A DNA stretch of 64,000 nucleotides, taken from the NCBI RefSeq assembly GCF_964355755.1, contig NC_092671.1, forward strand, positions 19,060,001-19,124,000. The letters run 5' to 3'. Position 1 is the stretch's first letter, and each line of letters begins with the position of its first letter. The notes below the pieces were generated by a model, which was not told the DNA's origin, did not search any database, and saw only the letters and a list, made by a program, of their open reading frames with translations. Source of the DNA: Antedon mediterranea. Its lineage: Eukaryota > Echinodermata > Crinoidea > Comatulida > Antedonidae. The position numbers and the translations under genes are program-made. Shown piece after piece: positions 3,486-64,000 of this stretch.

Positions 3486-3629
3486 ATTTCTAACAACTAA
3501 GTAGGTGGAGTTTTGCTGAAATGTAAAATTGCGCACGCGCAGAACTCTGATGACTAAAGTTGTAAACCAAAAAACAATGGTGTACAGTACTGCTGAGTAT
3601 TTACTTTCTATACTAGGCAAGATGGATTA

Positions 3630-5940
3630 AAAATGCGGAATAAAGAGGGGACAATAGGAAATAAATGAGGAAATAAGGGTGAAAAAAATTAATGGCCATA
3701 AAACCATGATAAAACATATCTTTTCCTTTCTCTGGATAACTTCCTTATGAACTCATCAGGGAGTTTTGGGATCGACACACAATCTGTTGGTAATTAATTT
3801 TGAAATATATATGTACCAAAAACGTAGGCTTGATCATTTTATGGAGCGACAATCTCCCGGTCATGGGAGTGAAGAGCAAGAAGAAAAATGTTGAAAGCGA
3901 CCTGAACAAGAATGTTCGGTAGCTTTCATAATGGAGAACAATGAAAGCGCTGGAAAAAAGAAAAAGGGAGAAAGTGGAACTTTAGGCAAACTGCAAGCTG
4001 TATAGGGATACATCCTTTTCGCTACGAAGGACTTGAGCACCTCTTTTACCCCCGTAGTATAGAAACTGGCAGACAAATGACAAACATAAGGTGAAGTGTC
4101 AAAAAACAAAACCAGTAAAATACCTTGTTAATACATACTGTCGAGAAGGATTTTAATAACATCATTTTTTATTAATAGTAGTTATTCCTTGGTTTTGTGC
4201 ATGGCATCTACAGTTTCTTTTATTTCAGTTTATTCATACACATTTCTAATACAAAATAAAAATACAGATTCCATTCTTATACCATAGCATCTGTTGTTAT
4301 GTTTGTTAAACTCAATTATAGAATTACTTACAATAAAGGTTTTGAAATAGTGCATACTAAACAGAAGTCTTCTTACACTTAAAACAGATAAATTTACCAG
4401 TTGACCATCCTGGTAACAGAAAAGTGGTTTCTAATTAGAGGGGTGTACATATCCATTTTGCAAGAGGCAACACCATTCGTTACAAACCTAATAATTTAAT
4501 ATACAGTATTGTTAAAATTAAGGTTGATATACATTCAGTATTAAACTGCTTCACAATAGAAATTATGCTAAATAGCCAAACTACATTGCTGCTTCTTTAT
4601 ACTAAAAGGTGCTTGACAATTTAAATAAGATTTGTCATGTACAGAAAGGCAAATCTATACAACATAAACATGCACTGTATGCTTACACAGCACATTGTTT
4701 CAATAACCTTCAAGTTCAACTGTCATGGTGCTGATTTTCAACGATACTGTATAAGGCAGCTGGGTTACAATTAAAAATGTTTTACATTTTACAGTAACTT
4801 TATACATCTATAGATATACAGACAACTCTCCTAATACCAGACAACCTTGGGCTGGCCAAATTTATCCAGAAATTGTGTTACATGTTCTGAATGTGTTTTT
4901 AAATGGTAAAGAGAATTCAGGACCATTGGAACCTCAAGAAATGTGTTTTACGAGATTTTCCAGTATTGAGAGTCAACTTTAGTTGTAAAAATATTCTAAT
5001 GCAATATTTAATATAATTTTTTACAAATTAAATAGAAACAAATCTTTTGGTTTTTAAACACATGTTTGTTTTATTATGCAAGCATACCTATATTCATGAA
5101 TTTATTTAATAAAATTCATATGTTTTCAAAGAATTACATATTTATGTTTATATTACCTTATAAAGAATTTTCTAATCCAAAACATGGACATGAAGTGTTG
5201 TTTATAAGCAAATGCCAATTTGAGCATTCCATTCAATTGAATTCAATGGAATAACGTTTTCAAGATGGTGTACAAATTGGTGTACAAACGGGGCACAAGC
5301 AAGAGCCATTGATCAAAGGGTTAGTTCACACTACAGATTTAAGATTCCATATCATAACATTTTAATCAGCAATGTTACACCAACAGTGTTTAGACTCAGT
5401 AATAGCAAATACAATAACTAACTCATAGTAATGAATGTTAGCTGTTGTTCCATTCGGCTAGTAATTCAGATGCATGAATTTTGTATAATTATGAACACAA
5501 AACTCTGTACCGTCGGTAGGTGTGAATAGGCGATAAGACTCCCTAAACAGCTATGAAATCATATTCTAGTGAGATCATTATATCACAAAATTATTAAATT
5601 AAAAGGCGCACTTATTTACAGCATTTAGGGGTCAAAATTAAAAAACTATACTGTGCTATACTTAATGTTAAAATGACAGTGTAAAACTTGTGTTCTTGCC
5701 GTTTTACCATTTTGGAATACGTTATCGAATGTGATCAAATTTATATTAACTTTTTTGTATTTTCTAAATCATATTCACATATCTACACATCTATTTTGAT
5801 TCATATTAATGTTATTGGTAAAATGATTTTCTCTTTCCCCCACCCACAATTACAAGATCAATATAATTTCATTTAAACTGACTATACAGTTTCATAAAAA
5901 ACCTAAACTAAGTTTATATGACTACTTACTGTACACAATA
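3630..5940. other. No gene recognised; includes region 3' of CUL1
   Basis: AT-rich sequence without convincing exons. It lies downstream of the CUL1 stop (6362) and may contain its 3' UTR; TTTATT words (AATAAA on the minus strand) occur near 4219 and 5069, but I cannot tell which, if any, is used. Confidence 0.4.
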
Positions 5941-6361: not shown

Positions 6362-19882
<13,521 letters not shown>

Positions 19883-28603: not shown

Positions 28604-28648
28604 TGACACCAATATTTGACAAGTTCCTTTGATATACCTATTGTACCA
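28604..28648 (+). promoter_or_regulatory. Upstream element of U5 snRNA gene 1 (PSE-type)
   Basis: Positions -60 to -16 relative to the U5 start, nearly identical to 33522-33566 before the second U5 gene at the same distance, whereas the following about 15 bases differ. This spacing fits an snRNA proximal sequence element; the core is TTCCTTTGATATACCTATTG. Confidence 0.7.
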
Positions 28649-31324: not shown

Positions 31325-32789
31325 CCGGTGTAAGATTTAAATGTGTCCGGTGTTTAAAAGTGTCCACCGGAATAGTGTAACACCAGCTGTTGTAAATGGT
31401 TGCAACCACCCGGACAGTTTTCATCGATAACAAAGTAGGACCATTGACTGTCACATCACCTTACCCCGTCAAAACTGGCCACTGGACATTTACCAACTCC
31501 CATTAGGATAATTATGATTCCTTAAATACCAACTTGAATCGCAAAACAAAACCAAAAAAATGTGTCGATCCAAATAAATATTATTCATATTGTTATATCA
31601 GGAGACATATTATTATACGACCTGTTGTTTAACAGACATATCAATTTAAAGTAAATGGACGTAATTTGAAAAAAATATATAATGGTCGCTAATATTGGAG
31701 GTGTATGTAAGTAAAATGATCTTAAATTGAAAGAGGACCAGTATAGTTACCCCTAACAATTAATAAAATGGTCGATAATCGAAGGTGTTTTAAGTAAAGT
31801 GGTCTTTAATTGGAGGGGGACCAGTACAATTACTTGGATTTTGTTACATAATTAAAATTATTTATTATTCTTGTCTTTACTCCTACCAATTAATACATGG
31901 TCGCTAATTGGAGGTGCCTATAAGTAAAGTGATCTTTAATTGGAAGAGGACCAGTACAATTACTTAATTTTTTCACATAATTAAAACTATGTATTCTTCT
32001 TGTCTTTACTCTGACCAATTAATAAATGGTCGCTAATTGGAGGTATCTATAAGTAAAGTGATCTATAATTGGAAGAGGACCAGTACAATTACTTAATTTT
32101 GTCACATAGTTAAAACTATGTATTCTTCTTGTCTTTATTCATACTAGATAATATAATGATCGCTAATTGGAGGTGTCTATAAGTAAAGTGATCTTTAATT
32201 GGAAGAGGACCAGTACAATTACTTAATGTTGTCACATAATTAAAACTATTTATTATTCTTGTCTTTACTCTTACCAATTAATAAATAGTCGCTAATTAGA
32301 GGTGTTTTAGATAAAGTGATTTTTAATTGGAAGAGGACCACTTCATTTACTTGTTTTTGTCACATAATTAAACATTATTTATTCTTCTTGTCTTTACCCA
32401 TACCAAATAATAATTATAATGATCCCTAATTGGAGGTGTTTAGACAAAGTGATCTTCAATTAGAAAAAAAACTAGTTTGGCATCATTAAGTATTATTGGT
32501 CGTTAAAAGAAGACAAGTGCATGCGCGATCAAAACCTGAATCTCAAATCCCAACCACCTATCATAAAACGGCCGGATTCCTACCTGACCGCTAATATTTC
32601 CCCGTACAGTATTTAATAGTGGACGCATTTAAATCCATGGGTCAGACATTATTAAACGGGCCGTACAGCATTAAATTAATTAAAAAACGCCCACGAACCC
32701 GTTGAAACATGCAACTGGACACTATCCAATGCTGAAAAGTGTCCGCCCGGACACTTTTGAATGCTGGACACATTTCAATCTTACACCGG
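31325..32789. mobile_element. Inverted-repeat element carrying 129-bp tandem repeats
   Basis: The left end CCGGTGTAAGATTTAAATGT followed by GTCCGGTGTTTAAAAGTGTCC is mirrored at the right by GGACACTTTTGAATGC and ACATTTCAATCTTACACCGG (ends 32789). The arms are about 45 bp. About 7 tandem copies of a satellite-like unit fill 31680-32470. No transposase and no clear target duplication. It separates the two U5 genes. Confidence 0.7.
31680..32470. repeat. Tandem array, unit about 129 bp, about 7 copies
   Basis: Each unit contains TGGTCGCTAATTGGAGGTGT, then AAAGTGATCTTTAATTGGAA, then GAGGACCAGTACAATTACTT and TCTTGTCTTTACT. Units start near 31683, 31769, 31898, 32027, 32155, 32286 and 32420; the first is shorter and the last two are more diverged. 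A single related stretch (AAAGCGGTCTTTAAATGGAG) occurs near 45771. Confidence 0.85.
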
Positions 32790-33099: not shown

Positions 33100-33480
33100 T
33101 AATACATAGCGCCCTCTAATTTTATTCTATCGTTAATAATATTCATTAAGGGTAGTTGATAATTATCAAATAAAACTGGGACTTTCAAAAAAAAAAATTG
33201 TTAATAAATATTTTATTATAACTTCAATCACCAACTATACAATAATTATACAGAGATATATATAATAATAGGAACAAGCATACTAAAATATTTGAACCTT
33301 TTGTAAGCACCTCCTATATTCTTTCTAATACATAGCGCCCTCTAAATTTATTATAACGTTAGTAACATTCATTAGAGGCAGTTGACAATTATAAAACTTG
33401 GGCTTTTTAAAAAATAAATTGTTAATTGATTTTTTAAATATTTTAATATAACATCAATCACCAAATAGACAATAATGTTT
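33100..33480. repeat. Direct duplication of the U5 upstream region
   Basis: A block starting TACATAGCGCCCTCTAA at about 33104 recurs at about 33331, each followed by similar AT-rich sequence ending in AATCACCAA and TAGACAATAAT/TATACAATAAT. The word AGCGCCCTCTA also lies about 266 bp before U5 gene 1 (28398) and about 246 bp before U5 gene 2, suggesting it belongs to an ancestral U5 repeat unit. Confidence 0.65.
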
Positions 33481-33581: not shown

Positions 33582-33702
33582 TTATTCTGGTTTCTCTGCA
33601 TCACGCATAAATCTTTCGCCTTTTACTAAAGATTTCCGTGCAGGGGAACACTCATTGAGTTTAAACTCAATTTTTCTCAGCCTTTGTATTTACAAGGGTA
33701 AT
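33582..33702 (+). ncRNA. RNU5: U5 spliceosomal snRNA, gene 2
   Basis: Same length and features as the copy at 28664: TTATTCTGGTTTCTCTGC start, GCCTTTTAC loop, Sm site AATTTTTCT, and a 3' hairpin CTTTGTATTTACAAGG in which one stem position differs (CCTTTG instead of TCCTTG context). The RNA body is otherwise nearly identical to gene 1, which suggests selection or gene conversion. The 3' end is included in a local tandem duplication (33669-33928). Confidence 0.94.
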
Positions 33703-33928
33703 ATGATAATTTAAAGGCAGATCTCACAAGTTACTTAGTAGTTGCAAGTCAATCTTCTATTGCCTTGGTAACGTATAAAGTGCTTACCCTCACATCAAGA
33801 ATTTTTCTCAGCCTTTGTATTTACAAGGGTAATATGATAATTTAAAGGCAGATCTCACAAGTTACTTAGTCGCAAGCCAATCTTCTATTGCCTTGGTAAC
33901 GTATAAAGTGTTTACCCTCACATCAAGA
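33669..33928. repeat. Tandem duplication including the U5 3' end
   Basis: A unit of about 130 bp starting AATTTTTCTCAGCCTTTGTA and ending TACCCTCACATCAAGA occurs at 33669-33799 and again at 33800-33928 with a 4-base indel and a few substitutions. The second copy therefore carries the Sm site and 3' hairpin of U5 without the 5' part. Confidence 0.85.
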
Positions 33929-34145: not shown

Positions 34146-34625
34146 AATTTTCAGCTTAAACCCTTTATGGAACCTGTGCCGGTACCAACTCTTAATATTC
34201 TGTTAAAACCTTTATAGAACCTGTGCCGGTACCAACTCTTAATATTCTGTTAAAACCTTTATAGAACCTGTGCCGGTACCAACTCTTGATATTCTGTTAA
34301 ACCCTTTATGGAACCTGTGCCGGTACCAACTCTTGATATTCTTTTAAAACCTTTATGGAACCTGTTCCGGTACCAATTCTTGATATTCTGTTAAACCATT
34401 TATGGAACCTGTGCCGGTACCAACTCTTGATATTCTGTTAAAATCTTTATGGAACCTGTGCCGGTACCAACTCTTGATATTCTGTTAAAACCTTTATGGA
34501 ACCTCTGCCGGTACCAACTCTTGATATTCTGTTGAACCCTTTATGGAACCTGTGCCGGTACCAACTCTTGATATTCTGCTAAAACCTTTATGGAAACTGT
34601 GCCGGTACCAACTCTTGATATTCTG
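34146..34625. repeat. 47-bp minisatellite derived from the acid phosphatase coding tail
   Basis: About ten copies of a 47-bp unit with GTGCCGGTACCAACTCTTGA. Read on the minus strand each unit spells ACAGAATATCAAGAGTTGGT then ACCGGCACAGGTTCCATAA, i.e. the last codons and stop of the acid phosphatase gene (T-E-Y-Q-E-L-V-P-A-Q-V-P-stop). The copy nearest the gene is the actual CDS end (34588). Confidence 0.9.
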
Positions 34626-37600
34626 TTGGTTCATCGTTTGATTTGTGGTTTGGTTTTCTTGTTATAAAATACATGACGATGAGACAAAAGAAGAATAAGC
34701 AAGCTACCATTATAGCCACAAATAAAGTATAATTTTCTGAAATATAAAACAAAGACAATTTCTTATATAAAACAAAGATAGGGTATATAATGTGCATAAC
34801 TGCGTGAATAGGCCATCGGTACCCCTTGACATATTTGGCGAATCGAGATATGTTTTGAATGGGAGGAGATATAACGAGCATTCAAAGTCATAGAGGTTCC
34901 AGATTATAATTGTGTACATTAAAGTATGACGAACATAAATTGTGTAACACTGTTGTTGTACTTTAGGGCGGGGCTGACGAACGATTGATATTGAAAACTT
35001 CAGTAGTTGAAGTAATATCATTGAGGCTGTTTTTGAAATATTTGTGGGTTATCCAAAGACACACATTGTTATCGTAAATAGGTTTATGTACACAATACAT
35101 TAAATCACCAATATATAAGGAACATACGAACGAACACACAATTAGTGTTTATAGATTTAAATTAAACAAGGACAGCCCATTCACTTCCAGTCAATTTGAC
35201 TATTTTTTGCTTACACGTTTTGGTAAAAGTGAATAACTATTATGTGAAATTTAAAATGGCATATTCAACGAAAAACATTTTTTGTAATTGTTTTTTCGGG
35301 GAGACAATATATCTTTAAAAATTTTTTTTGAATTTTAAATGTTTTCTTTATAATCTTACCTAACGGTGTCCTACAAGAGTCACGTATATCGCCAGGTAAC
35401 ACATTGGTTAATATTCGTTTAAATTCATCTAATGGACACAAGTCTGTGCAAGTAGGTAAGCTCATGATATAAGGATCAACCGTGCTATCATTCCTGTACC
35501 ATATCTTCACGTAGTACTCACTATAAAATTGGGTAAATTATCTAATATAGGGCCTATATTTTAGATCAAAAACATCATCTTAATCCTTTATTTGTTTTCT
35601 ACTAGTTCATCACTCATTTTTTTAAAGAGTAATACGACTGACAATATGTGTTTGCTTCCCTTAAGGTTACAAGAGCATGGAAAGGACACACATTTGTTAA
35701 TACTATATTATGTTGCTCCATGAATAAACAAACGGCTCACACATTTGCGCATGTGCCGTTTCACGTAGTTGTTTTACTTACTTTTGACTATCATTCCACA
35801 GTTCAACACCTAAACATGTCGCTGGTGGAGGTGGTGCACCATCGTATATTCCTAAGGCCATACTTAAAGGAACTAAAGTTGTATCATGCTGAGAACAAAT
35901 ACAAAGTATAATGATACGTCTCATAAATACAAATCAATGGATGGATAGATGGATGGACGGCTCATGTACTAAATAATTCATCATTACTCTGAGACGTATC
36001 AATATTATTAAAAAAAGATATTGTGACAAGAACGTAGTATGGCACCGTACAAACAGTGCTTTACGGTACAAATTTTACTGTACGGCCCTGCACAACACTG
36101 TACGTTACAAACAGTATACAGTACTGGATATATAGTAAGGTACAAACAGTACTCTACGGCAGATTACAGTATTGTAAGATAAGATACAAACAGACACGAC
36201 ATGGTACATAAATACTGTACGATATGTAATAAACAGTATTAGTATTGTAGGGCAAGGTACAAAAAGTACTGTACGGAACGGTACAAACAGTAGTGTATAC
36301 GGAATAAATAAGCAGTATTATTTTGTTAAGGCAAGGTACAAACAGTACTGTACGGCACTGTCAGTACTGTACGACAATTAGGCCTACAAACAATATTTTA
36401 AGGCAAGTACGAACAGCACTGAACTGCATGGTACGGTACAATCAGTACTACTGCACGGTACGGTACAAAAAGTACTGTTATGTACAGTACAAACAGTAGG
36501 CCTACTGTCCGACACGTTGCAAACAGTACTGCCCGGCATTGTAATGCAAGGTACAAACAGTGGCTCAGTACGGTACAAACAGTATTGTCCGGCACTTTAC
36601 AAACAGTATTGCTTCGCTCGCGTACCATCTAGGTCGTGCCCACAGATGGTTCTCGAATACACCGTAATTTCAGCGTAACTAAAGCCTAGTTCCCACTAGA
36701 ACGTAACGCAAGGACGTAAACGCAACGCAAGCGTTTTAACCAATGACAAGCGAAGTTATAGACAGCGAATAAGCCATCGCTTGTGATTGGTCAATTCACT
36801 TACGTTGCGTTACATTCTTGTGTTGCGTCGCTAGTGGGAACCACGCTTTACTAACTAAAATGTACGTAACGTACAGTAGGACTATTAATACATTGTCGTT
36901 TACAGAAACGAATAAATAGACACGATGATTTATGTAAAATTAGCACACCGGAATTACTTCCAAAAGAGAAACTTTTCACGACACATGAGTTTAAATGTTT
37001 GATTTGGACTCATTTAAACAAACCCAATTTGTGTTTTGTATATAACTTTAGGGTTGAAGGATGGGGAAGAGAATGTGTACAAAGAGGAACAGTTTTAAAA
37101 TATATTCTTTATCCACTCAGCAACGAAATATTTTTTCATGTTTTATACATCGATTTACTTTGTTAAAACTGGCACTGTCATAGTCACTTGAAATAGTAAA
37201 GTACATGTAACGATACACCACTACGACGTTTATGTTTTGTTATAATTATTAATTGAAAAGCAACTGTCAGTATTGTCAAAGTATTGCAATAGGTTTTAAG
37301 TTTATTCTTCAAGGGCTCATACATTTACCTACCGTTACCTACTGAATGTTCCATTCATCACAAATCAATACATTTGTCTAAACGTATATATTAAATATAG
37401 TATAAAAATAGTATTTTTAAAATAGTATTTTTTTTAAAAGAAAATCGGCCTGTATTCAACATTATGATGCTGTACTCGAGCTGTTCAACCGGTTTTTAGC
37501 TATTAAAAGCAATTATCGTAGGAGGATAAAGGTAATGCGAAGCATCTTCGTATTATTGTGTGCGGGTATTTTTCAAGATGGACATCCAGTAGACAGTGTA

Positions 37601-40600
37601 TACCACGATTGGAAAACACCCCTATTTGGGGTAAATCGTTGAACCTAAATTCGTTTTAATTGTCAATAACTAATTATCTAACTCAATTTAATTAGTAAAC
37701 AGCATTACATCCGGTGGTTGAAATCAGTACTGAAAGTATGAAACAACTTTATATAGCCTACCGAGTAAACATTCTAGAAGTAACGTGCGATTTATCGAAT
37801 TTTGCCCTTACGTAAATTTATATATAGTGGGTGACACACACCCAAGCAATTATTAGGCAAACAGTAGGCCTACTCTACAGTATGGTCAAAACAGTATTGT
37901 AAAGCAATGCACAAATAGTGTACGGTATTACTGTATTGCACGCTACAAACAGTACTGTACTGTATGGCATGGTACAAACATGATACTGTACGGTACGGTA
38001 CAAACAGTATTTGAAGGTACCGTACGGCACAAATAATATTGTACGGACGGCACAAATAAATAAATAAACAGTAGGCCTACTGTACAAGTATTATAGCACG
38101 GTACAAACAGTACTGTAGGGCACGTTACAAACATTATTTAAATGCACGGCACAAATAGTATTGTACGGTATTACTGTAGGCCTATGCTACTACAATATTG
38201 TTATCATACACGAATCATATTGTTTTAGTATGCCTAACACAGTCAAATATACTATTTGTAAGTCAATATCCGAAGGAGTGAATTAAATGAACACATTTGA
38301 GGATGGGGTTAACGAAAAACATAATTTTTACTTACTCCTGAATACATGTAAACTTGTCGAGTGGAATGTTTTTTCTCCATATTTCCTAAAAGTAGCTGAA
38401 CAATAGGACCTTATGAACAAACAAAAAAGATACCGGTCATAAATGCAACGATGCCTCCATGAACGAAGTAGCGTTGTATAGTAACATTTTTTAAACTGTT
38501 ATGCATGTGGTTTTCAATGTGTTAATATTTGGGTATACAGGATCGTTTTCAGTCCAGAGCCCTGTAGTTAAAGTAGCGTGTTTGTCATAATGTATACATA
38601 ACATTACCATTTAAATAAAGTGACACAAAGGGACTAATGAATCTATGTTATGACAGAACGTGAAATGTGTTACTCAGTGACCCTTTTAACTCCGCCTTCA
38701 TTCGGCTATGACAGAAGTACGGCAAATTTTTTTTGGCAAAATTTGTTTTTTTAGACTACATTCGTTAATTCTCGTATATATGTTATGGTTATATCCTGTA
38801 GAATTAAAGGCATCTATATATGATAAGGTAGCTATAATATGCCAATATTTGATACGACGAAGCTGGTGCTTATTGGACGCGTAACGGTTAGAGTTGAATA
38901 TTAAAACAGAAATAAACTTACCACCCTTCAACCTACAGATGTCTATATTGCCATCAAATAAAAAGTGTAAATAATGCACAGCAATTTCAGAGGATTTAGC
39001 AATTATTTCATCGGTTATCCACTGAGGTTGAGTGAGGTTATGCGAAATCTGTATGTTACAAAAGAGGCGTACATTGATCATAAAAATGTTACCGGTATTT
39101 AAAGGTACCGACACTATTTGTTCATGCTATAGTGGCTAGCATCAAACCATATTAAATTATCACGTTTCAAATGAATTAAACAACATTCTAAATATTCTGT
39201 TATATTGTAGGCCCTATTTCAATAATCATGGCGATCTGCATTTTCACCATCTCAGGTTTGCTTATATTCTACCCTATATAAAGTATTATATTATTTATAT
39301 TATTTAGGCAGCCTTATGATGTAGATTTCCTTTTTTTAATAATGAGAAATATTCACTACCGTATCAATTATTTTTTTTATTCATTTATCAATAATCCATC
39401 ATTATTTTCGAGGTGTTTGTCTTTAATAAATCATTAAAAGTAGGCTATAGCGCACCAGATGCTATTTTTTAATTTGCATACATTCGATAAAATATATTTA
39501 CCTCTATTGTGATTGCATCATTAAAGTCATAGCATTTACTAGCCATACGACTTAAAGAGCTATAGTTGTATTCTGCTTCTTCGTTTATGTATTTCAAAAA
39601 CTCCTACAAAACAGAAGAAAACAGTTTTTGAATTAATTTTCTTCCCTTTCACAAATCTTTTAATTTACTTATAGGGAGAGCGACGATATAGCTATAACTT
39701 TTGAAGAACATGTTTTAAAATGCTTATTTTGTTTTTATTGAATGAATACAGTGTAGGCCTATATCAATGTAAAAGGAATGAAAAAATGTGAACATTTTAT
39801 TTTTTGTTACTACTACCCAGACTTAGCCTAGAGGCCTACTAATTAAAAAAAAAATAAACGGAAAATACAGATAATAAATAAATTTAGAAGAAATCTACAC
39901 TTACTTGATTGTCATTTACAAACTGTTTATATTCAGACGATTGTCTAACCTTTTCAAACAGTTTCTTATAATAACTGCACACATAGGTGACTGGAAATAG
40001 CTGCAACGAAAAATCAAAATGTCAACAAAATTGCACAGAATCACAACTTCGCTACCGTGCAATTTGTATGGACAGACGTGGTTAACGGGATTCGGCCCTT
40101 CATTGTTGTTCTCGGCCTCGGAAAGGATAGGCCTATACATCTTAAAATTGGCAAAAGTATCCAGAAAGAAGAGTATTCGCAATAATACATTTACTAGCAG
40201 TATACTGCAAAGCTGCAATCACTTTAGAATTTGCTATAATCGCTGACCTCAAAATAAACATCTGTTCACACACAACATGTATATTTTTCCTTCAATTCAA
40301 ATTGGGGAAGCGAAGCTGGTAATGGATAAAAATGAAATACACATTTTTAAAAAGAAGCCCAAGAGCTTGTAATAATGAAATGCAATTTGAAATGGTCACA
40401 CATTTATTTTTTAATATAGGGCCTACATTTAAGAGCCATAAGGTAATGTGTAGATTATGAAAAGACTGTGTACACTAACAAATCTTGCAAAACGTTTGCT
40501 TGCAACCTTCGAGTTAGCCACTGTTAAAGACATGTTATATAGTGTCTGTCTACTCAGTTGATGTTATATAAAGACATTGATTCATATGCAGGTTCAAATG

Positions 40601-43600
40601 ACTAAAATCTGACTTGCCAAGTTCACGAGAAACTTCGGCCTCTAACGTCTGCAAACTAGTATTCTATTCCATAGTTTGTCAACTGAGTTACTAACTTTGC
40701 CTGCCAAACTCGGAGTGTGTAAAGTATGTAGTGTATACCAGGGTTTGATAATTAAAAATAAAAGTAATTTCTTCCTAATCAATTAATTAATTATCTTCAT
40801 ACTTGTTTTCTTTTTTTTCTAGGAACGTTGCCTTGGACATTTATTATATTATATACAATAAAATAAACTTATGTGTGTGTTAAATAATGCTTTCTCTTTT
40901 TATAAGCAACGTAAATGAATGTAGAAAGATTAAAATATATATTAGGGTTTTTTTTTTTTGCTTGACATTAACAAAATAATATGTTCAACTGTTAGAATCG
41001 TTTACCACGTCATATAAAAATATTTTCAACCATAACATGTTTTAAAAGGCAATAAAGAAATACTTAAGGAACCGTATGGAAATTTTGTAATTAGGCCTAA
41101 ATAATATTTTTGTATTTAAATGATGACAATGTTATAAATATATCATATATAAAAATAATTTTGTAATTTATTCGTATTTAAATAGTACATTTATATATTT
41201 TAATTTTCTAGTGCAAAATATAGGTTTTATAAGTAGTATTTTTATATAATAGGCCTATTAAATTGTTTGTGTTGACAAATGTCATATTTTGATTATAATT
41301 TGTTGTGCCTTTGTGATTTTGTTGAGAAATGACATATGACAGAGCAATAAATATTACAAACATCAAACAGATGGAAGTAATTGTTTCTTAAATTATTTTG
41401 GAAATTTTAACTGGTTTTCTACTCAATTATTTTTTTTTTCTTGTCCATCGTCCTTTTCAATTTTGAGGTCAATAACATCTAATCTAAACTTAGTTATAAT
41501 TTGTTTTTATTTTAAATTCTTAATATATCATGTTAAATTTTTTTTAAACATTAAATCTACAAATGAACCAACTTTATTTGAAAAAAAAAATGTCTTTCAG
41601 TATCTCTTAGACGTAATTTAAACTTTGTTATAAAACTCTATTTATCATGAACGTTGTGCAACCCAAATATAATCATAAGCCATTAAAAAAAACAAGATTC
41701 TTACACTTGCATACTGTAGTCCAACTATTCTCATTTCTCTCTATTTTTAGTCGCGTGGAAGCGACTCTATAGTTCACTATGTCGGTCGGTTGGTCGGTCT
41801 GTCTGTCTGTCTGTCGGTCTGTCTGTCTGTCTGTCGGTCCGGTATCACTATGCGTTTTATCGCTTTCTGACCTTATCTTGATATCAGTTTAATCTAGCTA
41901 GGTCAATTTTTCACAGTATATTCCTTATGGCCAGGAATCAATGTGGTTATGTTTTCACGGTGCGCAATAAAAAATTACGCGGTCTACGCACGATTTAACG
42001 AAATCACGTTTGTAATCATATCTTCACAACCATGAATCACAATTAAATAAAATTTGGTACTCATAAATTTCAGGGCATAAATCATCATATGGCAATACAA
42101 TTACGTGCGTAGCGCATGTAACGCATGCGTACGCGCGCTTAAAATTTTCAAAATTTATTTTCGATGAAATAAGAGTACATTTCAGGCAATTTTAAGCGTT
42201 TACAAAATTGCCATGAGTGCGCATATTTTTGCGCGCGCACTGCGCGTTAAATGTTATTGCGCACTCTTTTTGCTCGATTTCTGTTTTCCTGACTTACTTT
42301 TCAACTCGAAATTACGTTATACGAGCACGTCGAAAGTGACAGGCTACGCACGTGTAAATTAAAAATATATAAATGTTTTTAAACATTTCAACATTTTTAA
42401 ACATGTTTTTTTTTCTCTTTTGCGGTTAACCACCACCTTTATTAATTCTTTCATACAAATTTCGTTCATACATTAAATTTCTGTTTTCTACTTTTTTCGT
42501 TATTTTCTGATTTTTTCTCTTTTAACCTTTATACATATAGTGGTTTGATTATATGCATACAAAAACTGTACATCTTAAAATACAAAAATGGATGCCACTT
42601 ATAAGTTACAACATGCCTAGTGTATTCATATCTTTTAAAATATATTTAAACTGAATCCAGGGATTCTGGCATACAGGTTTTTTAAGTTCAGTTTTAATTT
42701 TAATTATGTATATGACGTACACAGCTATTGAATACAATTGGTTTTTTAATTGACATTTACTTCCTAACAGGAGTTCTTTGAACGAGCTACTGCTGTTATC
42801 TAGCTTTTTAAATATATTGTCAATTTTTTCCCACATTATTTGATTACGTCTACAATAATAAAACATGTTTTTCGTCTTCTATAACTCCACAATTGTTACA
42901 TATGTTATTATTTTTCAGTTTCCAGTTATACAGTTTTAGATTTGTAGGTACAACTCTATTTAGTAATTTGTAATTCAATTGGGCAAATTTCTTAATTTTT
43001 TCGTTTTTCACTTTTCTTTTCCAGACATCACACCACTTGATATCTTCATTAAATATGTTATTCCATTTAAGTATGCTTTTCGGGGGAATAAAGACATTAT
43101 TAACAAAGTTAGAATAAACATCTTTTGTTGTCATCTTAATTATATTGTTGATATTGTATTCTAGATTCACATTCATATATTGGTTCATATTTGGCATATT
43201 ATGTTTAATTATACTTAACCACTCTTTTGGAATAGCTCTGGTTAGAGAAACATATTCAGCTATCCAGTTTTTCTTAATACGTAATTGTTTAATTATTTCT
43301 ATAGGTTTCATTAGACGATTGAAAATAATTATATCTCCAATTTGATTAAAACCTGCATCTATCCAGTTCTTAAAGAATAGTGGTTTGTTTCTATATTTAA
43401 TATCATTATTACCCCATAAGTTTTGCTTTATCACTTCTTCATACTCGTTAATTGTACCTTCATTATTCATATTATTAAATTCAACACAACACTTTAGAAC
43501 ATTATAATAAAAAGATGGTATATTATCTAAGCCCATGTTATTTTGAAAATTGATATTTGACATACTTAAAATTAGTTGTTCGGTTCCAAATTTGTTAAAA

Positions 43601-45068
43601 TAGTATAGTGGTAAGATTTTCCATCTTACGTGTTTTCTACACAGTAATTTTCTTGCCCATATCATTTTCAGAGAGTTTATGTGTAATGCGAAATCAGGCA
43701 TACCTATGCCCCCTTTAATCATTTTACCGATTAAAGTTTTTCTTTTTATTTTTTCTGTTTTTCCATTCCATAAAAAGTTATATATCAATTTATTTATTTT
43801 AAAAATAACATCATCTGGTACATCAATTATACATGAATTGTATGTTAGTTTAGACAAAGCTAAACTTTTTAAAATGGTAACTTTGCCAAAAAAGGTTAGG
43901 TTTCTTCCTTTCCATCTATTGAGTAGCATTTCTAAGTTTGCCACCTTACTATCCCAATTTAATTCACTGCATTTGTTCTCATTATATCCCACATAAATAT
44001 CCAAAATCTTAATTGGTTCATTAACCCAATTTAGACGGCATGGTTTTTCAATTTTGTTTACATTTTTGCCAATCCATATAGCGTTGGTTTTTTTTTTATT
44101 TAAAGTCATACCAGACGCTTTACCAAACTTATTAACAATGTTTAAACCAATCTCTATACTTTTTTCATTTCCCACAAAGAGTACAGTGTCATCTGCCAGA
44201 TGCGCAATGCGAACTTCCTCACCATTATCATTGTTAGATAAACATGTTCAGTAATTTCGGTCAGTATAGTTCACTATGTCGGTCGGTCGGTCTGTCTGTC
44301 TGTCTGTCTGTCGGTCTGTCTGTCGGTCTGTCGGGTATCACTATGCATTGTAGCACGCGACTTAATGGCTGTTGGCCTTGTTCTAATTAGTAAACACTTT
44401 GAAAGAAATATACTTGTGTCGGTTTGAATAATATATAAACAATAACTAATAATATACACATACACTGCCATTATATTGAGAAATAAATAAAGCTTTCCTA
44501 CTTACAATGTCGTCTCCTTCGGGTACATAGATATCATTGAGCCATCGGTTGGTTTCGTTTGGATACAAGCCCTTCAATGTCCAGTTAGCTGAATCAATAG
44601 TTCGATCAAAATCAGTAGATCGAACATATATTTGATTTTCATTGAAACTTTGGTCAAGAAAGAAATCGTATTTATTTCTTAGAAAAGTTCCCAATTTATA
44701 CATTTCACGTTGACCTTTCTGAAAAAGTAATATTATTTGCATAAAAATACAAACCATTGTTTAAACGTATTAACTGTATTAGTCAAGTGAAACAAATTAA
44801 AACATTCAAGGTAATATTATTAGCTATAGATTAAAAACACAAATGCAAATAATGTATGTTTTGCATTCGTTGAATTGCAAGAATTTCTGATTTTTCTTTA
44901 ATATGACGTTGGTATTGCGCTCTCTAAATATAATCATTAAGCATTATTAGTTTTCTAGTTAAATTGATGGTTTATTCCAAAAGTCTACAATAATTACATA
45001 TCTTAGCAGCCGAAGTTCATTCGATACCAATCATCCTCATATATACGAAACAGTACTGTCTGCAGATT

Positions 45069-45109
<41 letters not shown>

Positions 45110-46235
45110 GAAACGATAAGATGAGGAAATCTGTGAGAATCTATTTAATTATATTTAAAAATATATATACTTACATAGGTTAGCTGTCCAAGACCTTGAC
45201 TCCATTTTTCCGGTCCGTAGGCATCACTGGGATATGGTCTGACTGGTGTTCTTTTACCATGCCTGAATACCTTCAACAAAATTAACAAGGCACAATGAAC
45301 ATAGTATATCTAAGAAGGGTGTTTTGAGTCCCATTATTAATAGGTCTCATTCTAATTAAAGACAACTTTTGGGACCCAGATTTTAGTACGGTGTTTAGTA
45401 GCTTTGGTTACTAGTGATCTTTAAATTCCTCTCTTACGGGAAATTAAACATCAGAATGGGATTATCGTTCTTCTCCAAAGACTGAGGATAAATTTAATCG
45501 GGTTGAGTTGTCTGTTGTCAGTGTTTCCTTCAAATTGTCAATGCATTAAGTTCAAAAGTTAATTTTAAAGAAAATGTTTAGTTCCTTAGTTCGGGACATT
45601 CCAGAACTTATATGACTAGATTCCTCTATAACTTCGTATCTACCATTGTGACAGCTCTCTCGGTTATGTAGGTCTACCAAAATCGTGGCCTTTAGTCTCT
45701 AACTAGAAGGAGTCTTTAATGGGAGGAAAGAGAAAATGTTAAAAGATAGGCGATCATCCGTGGCGTCGATAAAGCGGTCTTTAAATGGAGGGAGACCTGT
45801 AATTAAAAAGCAATTTCTTTTCCCCTACAATTTTTAATGTCTCTTTTTCAATACTACAGGGTGATAAAAACAAGGCAATATAGATGGCTGCAGTCGCGTG
45901 CTCAAGTTAGTGTTTACCGACCGACCGACCGACATAGTGAGCTGTAGAGTCGCGTGCAACACGTTGGTATAGAGTTAACCGATCACACATGAGAACTTTG
46001 GATAACTGGGATCGGAAACATATGATTTAGTTCCGCCATGGTATAAATCCGTTCTATGCAGGCTTAACTCTAGCGAGTATGGAAACAAAGCCTAGACCTA
46101 TAAATTACTTACCAGATTAACCATATGAAGTTTGAGGTTCTCTTCGTTTATGTTGGTACCGTCTGATTCTACCAAAGTCATACATAGTAGATTTAACAAA
46201 ATTACAATCTGCAGGTATATCCTAAACCCGTCCAT
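34588..46235 (-). CDS. Histidine acid phosphatase, lysosomal/prostatic type, 10 exons
   Basis: A phosphomonoester hydrolase anchored by one membrane helix. Exons, all GT-AG and in frame: 46113-46235, 45175-45270, 44506-44718, 39905-40000, 39502-39603, 38922-39048, 38336-38385, 35782-35888, 35360-35520, 34588-34736. The product is 407 aa (human ACP2 423). An N-terminal hydrophobic signal is encoded in exon 1. The catalytic motif RHGKRTP is at residues 44-50 (family RHGxRxP, nucleophile His45), and YVRSTDFDRT follows in exon 3. HDTT at about 270, after YSG, supplies the proton donor pair HD. Exon 9 has YRNDSTVDPYIMSLPTC, as in ACP2/ACP3. A membrane helix is at about 363-382, then RKPNHK and a short tail with YQEL (398-401), a YxxØ sorting motif comparable to the lysosomal tail of ACP2. 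The intron between exons 3 and 4 contains a LINE. ACP2 versus ACP3/ACP4 orthology is unresolved. Confidence 0.93.
36030..36620. repeat. GGTACAAACAGTACTGTACGG repeat array 1
   Basis: About 15-20 irregular copies of a 20-45 bp unit with GGTACAAACAGTACTGTACG. The unit is itself partly palindromic (GTAC words). It lies in the acid phosphatase intron between 35888 and 38336. Confidence 0.8.
36681..36849. mobile_element. Small MITE, GTTCCCACTAG family, best copy
   Basis: AAAGCCTAGTTCCCACTAGA on the left and CTAGTGGGAACCACGCTTT on the right; inner parts ACGTAACGCAAGGACG and TTGCGTTACATTCTTGTG are also inverted. 169 bp, non-coding. It sits between the two GTACAAACAGTAC arrays. Confidence 0.75.
37855..38190. 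repeat. GGTACAAACAGTACTGTACGG repeat array 2
   Basis: The same unit as at 36030-36620, in the same orientation and the same intron, about 1.2 kb away. Confidence 0.8.
41751..41855. repeat. CTATAGTTCACTATGTCGG-(CTGT)n dispersed repeat, copy A
   Basis: TCGCGTGGAAGCGACTCTAT, then AGTTCACTATGTCGGTCGGT, a (GTCT)n run and GGTATCACTATGCG. Near-identical blocks occur at 44264-44362, and a shorter one in inverse orientation at 45892-45958. Confidence 0.75.
42405..44250 (-). pseudogene. 5'-truncated L1/Tx1-like LINE
   Basis: In the acid phosphatase intron, same orientation as the gene. The longest frame (44175-42850, extended upstream by HLADDTVLFVGNE with catalytic ADD) encodes the RT palm end and thumb: KASGMTLNKKKTNAIWIG, RWKGRNLTFFGKVTILKSLA and KLIYNFLWNGK, a set typical of L1/Tx1-type elements. 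A C-terminal zinc-knuckle-like NNNICNNCGVIEDEKHVLLL follows, then a frameshift near 42860 into a second frame ending at 42606. A T run at 42400-42415 (plus strand) corresponds to the poly(A) tail. Sequence 5' of the palm is missing, so it cannot act alone. Confidence 0.88.
44264..44362. repeat. CTATAGTTCACTATGTCGG-(CTGT)n dispersed repeat, copy B
   Basis: TATAGTTCACTATGTCGGTC, (TGTC)n, GGTATCACTATGC, ending AGCACGCGACT. It flanks the LINE on the side opposite to copy A. Confidence 0.75.
45070..45105. repeat. (TA)n microsatellite
   Basis: An uninterrupted AT dinucleotide run of about 36 bp in an acid phosphatase intron. Confidence 0.95.
45892..45958. repeat. Short inverted copy of the CTATGTCGG repeat
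   Basis: GTCGCGTGCTCAAGTTAG, then (CCGA)n, CATAGTGAGCTGTAGAGTCG. GTCGCGTG stands at both ends as a direct repeat. Confidence 0.6.
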
Positions 46236-63473: not shown

Positions 63474-64000
63474 GAAGATGTAAGGTATACCACTGAACAT
63501 GAGGGTGTGAGATACACTCCTTAACATAAAGATATGTACACCGCTGAATATGAAGGTGTAAGATATACCCTTTAACATGAGGATGTAGGGTACACTGCTG
63601 AATATGAAGGTGTGAAATATACCCTTTAACATGAGGATGTAGGGTACACCACTGAATATGAAGGTGTAAGATATACCCTTTAACATGAGGATGTAGGGTA
63701 CACCACTGAATATGAAGGTGTGAAATATACCCTTTAACATGAGGATGTAGGGTACACCACTGAATATGAAGGTGTAAGATATACCCTTTAACATGAGGAT
63801 GTAGGGTACACTGCTGAATATGAAGGTGTGAAATATACCCTTTAACATGAGGATGTAGGGTACACCACTGAATATGAAGGTGTGAAATATACCCTTTAAC
63901 ATGAGGATGTAGGGTACACCACTGAATATGAAGGTGTGAAATATACCCTTTAACATGAGGATGTAGGGTACACCACTGAATATGAAGGTGTGAAATATAC
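63474..64000. repeat. 54-bp minisatellite made of two related 27-bp halves
   Basis: About nine units of the pattern ACATGAGGATGTAGGGTACA-CCACTGA followed by ATATGAAGGTGTGAAATATA-CCCTTTA. The two 27-mers are themselves diverged copies. Units near 63480-63560 are more diverged; those to the right are almost identical and continue past the window end. Because 27 is a multiple of 3, the minus strand stays open (63381-63956: LKGIFHTFIFSGVPYIL repeats), but this needs no coding explanation. Confidence 0.92.

Follow-up and report, generated by a model that had tools for sequence, protein, structure and literature searches.

In a window of 64,000 nucleotides from the crinoid Antedon mediterranea (the whole stretch of DNA analysed, to which all unlabelled positions refer), a 47-bp tandem repeat runs across the stop codon of an acid phosphatase gene. 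We consider it highly probable that this is an ordinary minisatellite, the product of slippage or unequal exchange, and that its first unit takes in the final 13 codons, counting the stop, of a membrane histidine acid phosphatase gene. The repeat straddles a stop codon and is tolerated nonetheless, providing a clean example of an arrangement in which copy-number drift would be almost invisible to the protein.

The array was reported by Tandem Repeats Finder at 34156-34627 with a period of 47, 10.0 copies, 93% matches, 0% indels and a score of 825. On the minus strand its ten units run ungapped from 34626-34580 and 34579-34533 down to 34203-34157.

34157-34626, minus strand: the array, ten tandem units of 47 bp (unit 1, 34580-34626; unit 10, 34157-34203)

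The consensus of the units, read on the minus strand, is ACAGAATATCAAGAGTTGGTACCGGCACAGGTTCCATAAAGGTTTTA. Individual units depart from it by 1-3 bases (94-98% identity), and the mean pairwise difference among the ten is 6.5%. Head-to-tail units of ~10-100 bp in several copies define a minisatellite, and the array, with 47 bp × 10.0 copies, is one. Across the whole 354-Mb genome the unit core, at a tolerance of 3 mismatches, was found at these ten places only (the reversed pattern, used as a control, had 0 matches), and the full array matched this locus only. The array is a one-place repeat and not a dispersed element family. Beyond 34156, the match to a decayed eleventh unit was no better than chance (p = 0.56), and no remnant of the repeat was found upstream of unit 1 (p = 0.95).

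The sequence-only reading had assigned the adjoining open reading frame to the end of an acid phosphatase gene, an assignment borne out by the frame shared across exons and by matches to His_Phos_2 and to prostatic acid phosphatase. The gene lies on the minus strand, the last base of its stop codon being 34588, and its last three coding exons share one frame across consensus GT/AG junctions. The following exons were placed, from the 3′ end of the gene to its 5′ end.

34588-34736, minus strand: coding part of the last exon, with membrane span, cytosolic tail TRKPNHKSNDEPTEYQELVPAQFP and TAA; upstream acceptor TTTATATTTCAG
35360-35520, minus strand: penultimate coding exon (NEYYVKIWYRND...SCRTPL), whose frame continues into the last exon; donor G|GTAAG; prostatic acid phosphatase match
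35782-35897, minus strand: exon with the catalytic HD motif (CSQHDTTLVPLSMALGIYDG...), of which only the 3′ part is placed
38914-39979, minus strand: two middle exons (39979-39902 and 39042-38914), placed by similarity to paralogues, with approximate junctions
44503-45285, minus strand: 5′ exons, at 45285-45178 (containing the catalytic motif RHGxRTP) and, following it, 44718-44503
46110-46235, minus strand: candidate first exon, presumed from a signal-peptide-like start, MDGFRIYLQIVILLNLLCMTLVES

The C-terminal catalytic part alone matched prostatic acid phosphatase with an E-value of 1e-19. When the exon pieces were joined, including the 5′ exons, the match to prostatic acid phosphatase, the nearest solved relative, reached 7e-45 and the Pfam family His_Phos_2 scored 78.4 bits against a cut-off of 23.6, the query in both cases being a set of exon pieces rather than a complete gene model. 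Both catalytic motifs were found, RHGKRTP at ~45270 and HDTT at ~35890. The predicted gene product is an animal-type type I membrane histidine acid phosphatase (His_Phos_2; PAP/ACP2-like). A long open reading frame on the minus strand (42853-44247), by eye resembling the C-terminal part of a non-LTR retrotransposon reverse transcriptase, sits between the 5′ and middle exons and is apparently intronic.

Gene and array have one segment in common.

34588-34626, minus strand: coding part of unit 1, TEYQELVPAQFP and stop

Unit 1 consists of the final 39 coding bases (13 codons including TAA) plus eight post-stop bases, and the open reading frame ends ..DEP-TEYQELVPAQFP-TAA, continuing the frame of the two exons before it. 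The repeat unit was correctly said to contain the stop codon, the TAA lying within the 47 bp; of the roughly ten units that had been placed past the stop, ten exist, with one holding the end of the coding sequence and the nine others (units 2-10) all following downstream. The last exon encodes a single predicted hydrophobic stretch, VAIMVACLFFFCLIVMYF, with YQEL 14 residues further on, which by its sequence corresponds to the C-terminal span and YxxPhi tail of the TMPAP/LAP-like form. For the distance of the tyrosine from the membrane, 10-40 residues are quoted for endocytosis, and 6-8 are usual for lysosomal targeting (PMC4584282); the predicted spacing of 14 residues fits the former range better than the latter. 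The YQEL of unit 1 is a putative tyrosine-type signal, endocytic or lysosomal. An earlier proposal of a lysosomal sorting tail holds as far as the presence of Y-x-x-L, whereas the predicted spacing exceeds that usual for lysosomal targeting.

The motif had also been expected in every unit. It is present in the tail and spelled in 8 of 10 units, and was lost from units 9 and 10 by a CAA>TAA change, which puts an early stop in each. A GTT>TTT change, found in unit 1 alone, gives QFP there, the remaining units reading QVP or QVL. The coding-like part holds ten departures from the consensus, nine of which alter or end the peptide; the tenth is silent. Since nine in ten of these differences are non-silent and units 9 and 10 have lost YQEL, units 2-10 bear no sign of coding constraint, and we infer that they evolve neutrally and would appear in transcripts, if at all, as part of the 3′ untranslated region (UTR). 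Variable sites made up 4 of 8 positions in the 8-bp spacer after the stop and 8 of 39 in the remainder, a non-significant difference (Fisher p = 0.18), and the spacer was accordingly not accepted as more variable than the coding-like part; higher spacer variability of this kind, non-significant here, would be expected if the conserved part were under constraint.

The effect of copy-number change was simulated by joining each pair of units at each position, which yielded 2115 in-register duplications and 2115 deletions. Whole-unit duplications left the tail identical in 2115/2115 cases and YQEL was kept in 100%. After deletion the tail was identical in 86% of cases (n = 2115) and YQEL was kept in 99%, the tail being cut to TEY in 1%. 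Indels of 1-2 bases sampled in unit 1 all ended in EYQELVPA[QE]VP (12/12), including those ahead of the motif, the frameshifted reads continuing through one or two units before stopping. The return to EYQELVPA-VP comes about because 47 is not divisible by three and both alternative frames are open. These results speak against the suggestion that copy-number change or slippage could alter the sorting tail. The robustness of the tail follows mechanically from a 47-bp unit that carries a stop, and selection is not needed for it.

On the reading as an ordinary minisatellite, replication slippage or unequal exchange would make the array and turn it over, and the first unit met by the ribosome would always supply a stop in the reading frame. 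Because that first unit carries the in-frame stop, copy number can drift with the protein nearly unaffected, and this tolerance would explain the persistence of the array across the stop codon. Arrays with a unit of at least 20 bp and at least 3 copies occupied 5.5% of 146 kb sampled, a non-random sample composed of the window and the phosphatase paralogue loci. With minisatellites making up ~5% of the sampled DNA, some array across a stop codon is therefore expected somewhere. By inference, arrays whose units carry a stop in the entered frame should be the best tolerated, a rule that predicts where stop-spanning arrays should survive in repeat-rich genomes.

How the repeat and the tail came together can be read in two ways. 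The array plausibly arose by amplification of the gene's own tail, as the sequence-only reading had claimed, and unit 1 does coincide with the end of the coding sequence; the tails of five paralogues are, on the other hand, unrelated to it. The converse history, in which the array was first present beside the gene, the coding sequence was extended into the first unit and the YQEL tail is repeat-derived, is possible, if somewhat unlikely. It concerns the origin only and is compatible with an ordinary minisatellite in the present array. The five paralogues of the same genome (L019/L021, L022/L023 and L024) speak for such a capture, their unrelated C-terminal tails having no YQEL (for example KAIRSTNTKYRRQINEDNEPCI, RSEVKQRHKRYLIDKHGETL and one ending DFHLLGTGMSESEDEAVFDA; those at L022 and L019 may be spliced or disrupted); the motif is absent from 5/5 of these tails and is not a family-defining feature. 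Moreover, wherever a reading frame enters an array and meets a stop there, the array would seem to hold the end of the open reading frame. Against capture, tail lengths are alike (24 residues here and ~21-23 in two paralogues), with no obvious extension, and the tail of mammalian transmembrane prostatic acid phosphatase has a YxxPhi motif (PMC3769315), which may be ancestral. The paralogue tails are in any case too divergent to discriminate amplification from capture. One of them, at L021 ~3545-3780 (and at L019 near 9519-9731), includes ...PIDFHLLGTGMSESEDEAVFDA, with a DxxLL-like motif and an acidic cluster, putatively a different kind of sorting signal in the same family.

Other readings concern what the array does at present, or whether it is real. 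The simulated deletions and duplications and the sampled indels, all of which largely or wholly retain the motif, could suggest that selection maintains the array as protection of the tail, such that frameshifts and exchanges still end in a sorting motif. We find this scarcely credible, as retention comes automatically with a stop-bearing unit that is not divisible by 3 in length and is open in both other frames, the motif is lost in units 9-10, and frameshifted tails would still bear extra residues. At the transcript level, each unit also contains a variant polyadenylation hexamer.

34164-34592, minus strand: variant poly(A)-signal hexamers, ten in all, each overlapping the stop of its unit: CATAAA (units 1-7 and 10) or TATAAA (units 8-9)

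The units, each with its stop, hexamer and G/T-rich stretch, might then form a tandem polyadenylation bank in which copy number sets the position or strength of the 3′ end. Such a regulatory array is improbable. CATAAA or TATAAA occurs in 10/10 units, and neither AATAAA nor ATTAAA was found on the minus strand between the stop and ~33447; the hexamer, however, follows automatically from CCA-TAA-A, and canonical signals exist at 33447 and 33352. A related reading starts from AG|AATATC at the unit starts, which is phase-compatible with the donor of the penultimate exon. In units 1-8, AG|AATATCAAGAG would join that exon in frame, giving a predicted soluble phosphatase that lacks the span and has an EYQELVPA-type ending. 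That the units serve as alternative 3′ splice acceptors and tandem poly(A) sites, each with its own stop and CATAAA/TATAAA, is very improbable; the pyrimidine tract of the candidate acceptors is weak, and both the hexamers and the in-frame acceptors could be accidents of sequence. If it were true, the balance between soluble and membrane enzyme would be tuned by copy number. Tandem arrays are often assembled with the wrong number of copies, and the repeat might have been collapsed or expanded in the assembly. Given the private substitutions of the units and the chromosome-scale assembly, at least several distinct units are real, and we attach almost no weight to an artefact.

Several other repeats were observed. 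A tandem array with a 129-bp unit (5.5 copies, 31757-32465) lies 1.7 kb beyond the phosphatase array, and 33670-33770 and 33800-33900 form a local duplication of ~110-130 bp. The segment RYSGFSASRINLSPFTKDFRAGEHSLSLNSIF is repeated 5 kb apart, with similar text at 28620 and 33540, and is probably a dispersed repeat. A 54-bp minisatellite of ~50 copies, with TAA in one frame per unit, occupies 63477-64000 and continues in L025 (3477-6212); its part at 63477-64000 was considered as a second stop-spanning case and rejected, no gene frame having been found running into it, so that no local pattern emerged. At L023 (5242-6800), within the sampled 146 kb, an acid phosphatase paralogue is followed ~180 bp after its stop codon by a 39-copy array of a 40-bp unit. 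L016 and L009-L015 (C2:8391216-8397799) contain a multi-exon gene with VIRHGDRTPKQKMKM, which we take to resemble the PPIP5K/VIP1 inositol kinase branch of the superfamily and not acid phosphatase.

Apart from the position of its first unit, the locus is ordinary, being of a known kind (a minisatellite at a gene 3′ end) and buffered against its own copy-number change. The encoded protein has known counterparts. Transmembrane prostatic acid phosphatase (TMPAP) is reported to carry a YxxPhi tyrosine signal in its tail (PMC3769315), and TMPAP and lysosomal acid phosphatase are likewise histidine acid phosphatases with a single C-terminal span and a short YxxPhi cytosolic tail; the likeness is one of predicted architecture and motif. 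A literature search for arrays spanning a stop codon returned general minisatellite papers and Prdm9 only, a weak negative given its open-licence coverage. Among variable-number tandem repeats (VNTRs) in 3′ UTRs or flanking genes, the 40-bp repeat of the SLC6A3/DAT1 3′ UTR, cited in a human survey (PMC8096271), is likewise a tandem array at a gene's 3′ end with units some tens of bases long; in our case, by contrast, the stop codon falls inside the first unit, which also encodes the last 12 residues, as seen in one assembly only. The terminal coding minisatellite of Prdm9 also lies at the 3′ end of its gene, and stop-holding units are found in it too (PMC3890296). In Prdm9 the units are in-frame coding units of 28 codons and the stop-bearing unit is always the last, whereas here every unit carries a stop and only the first is translated.
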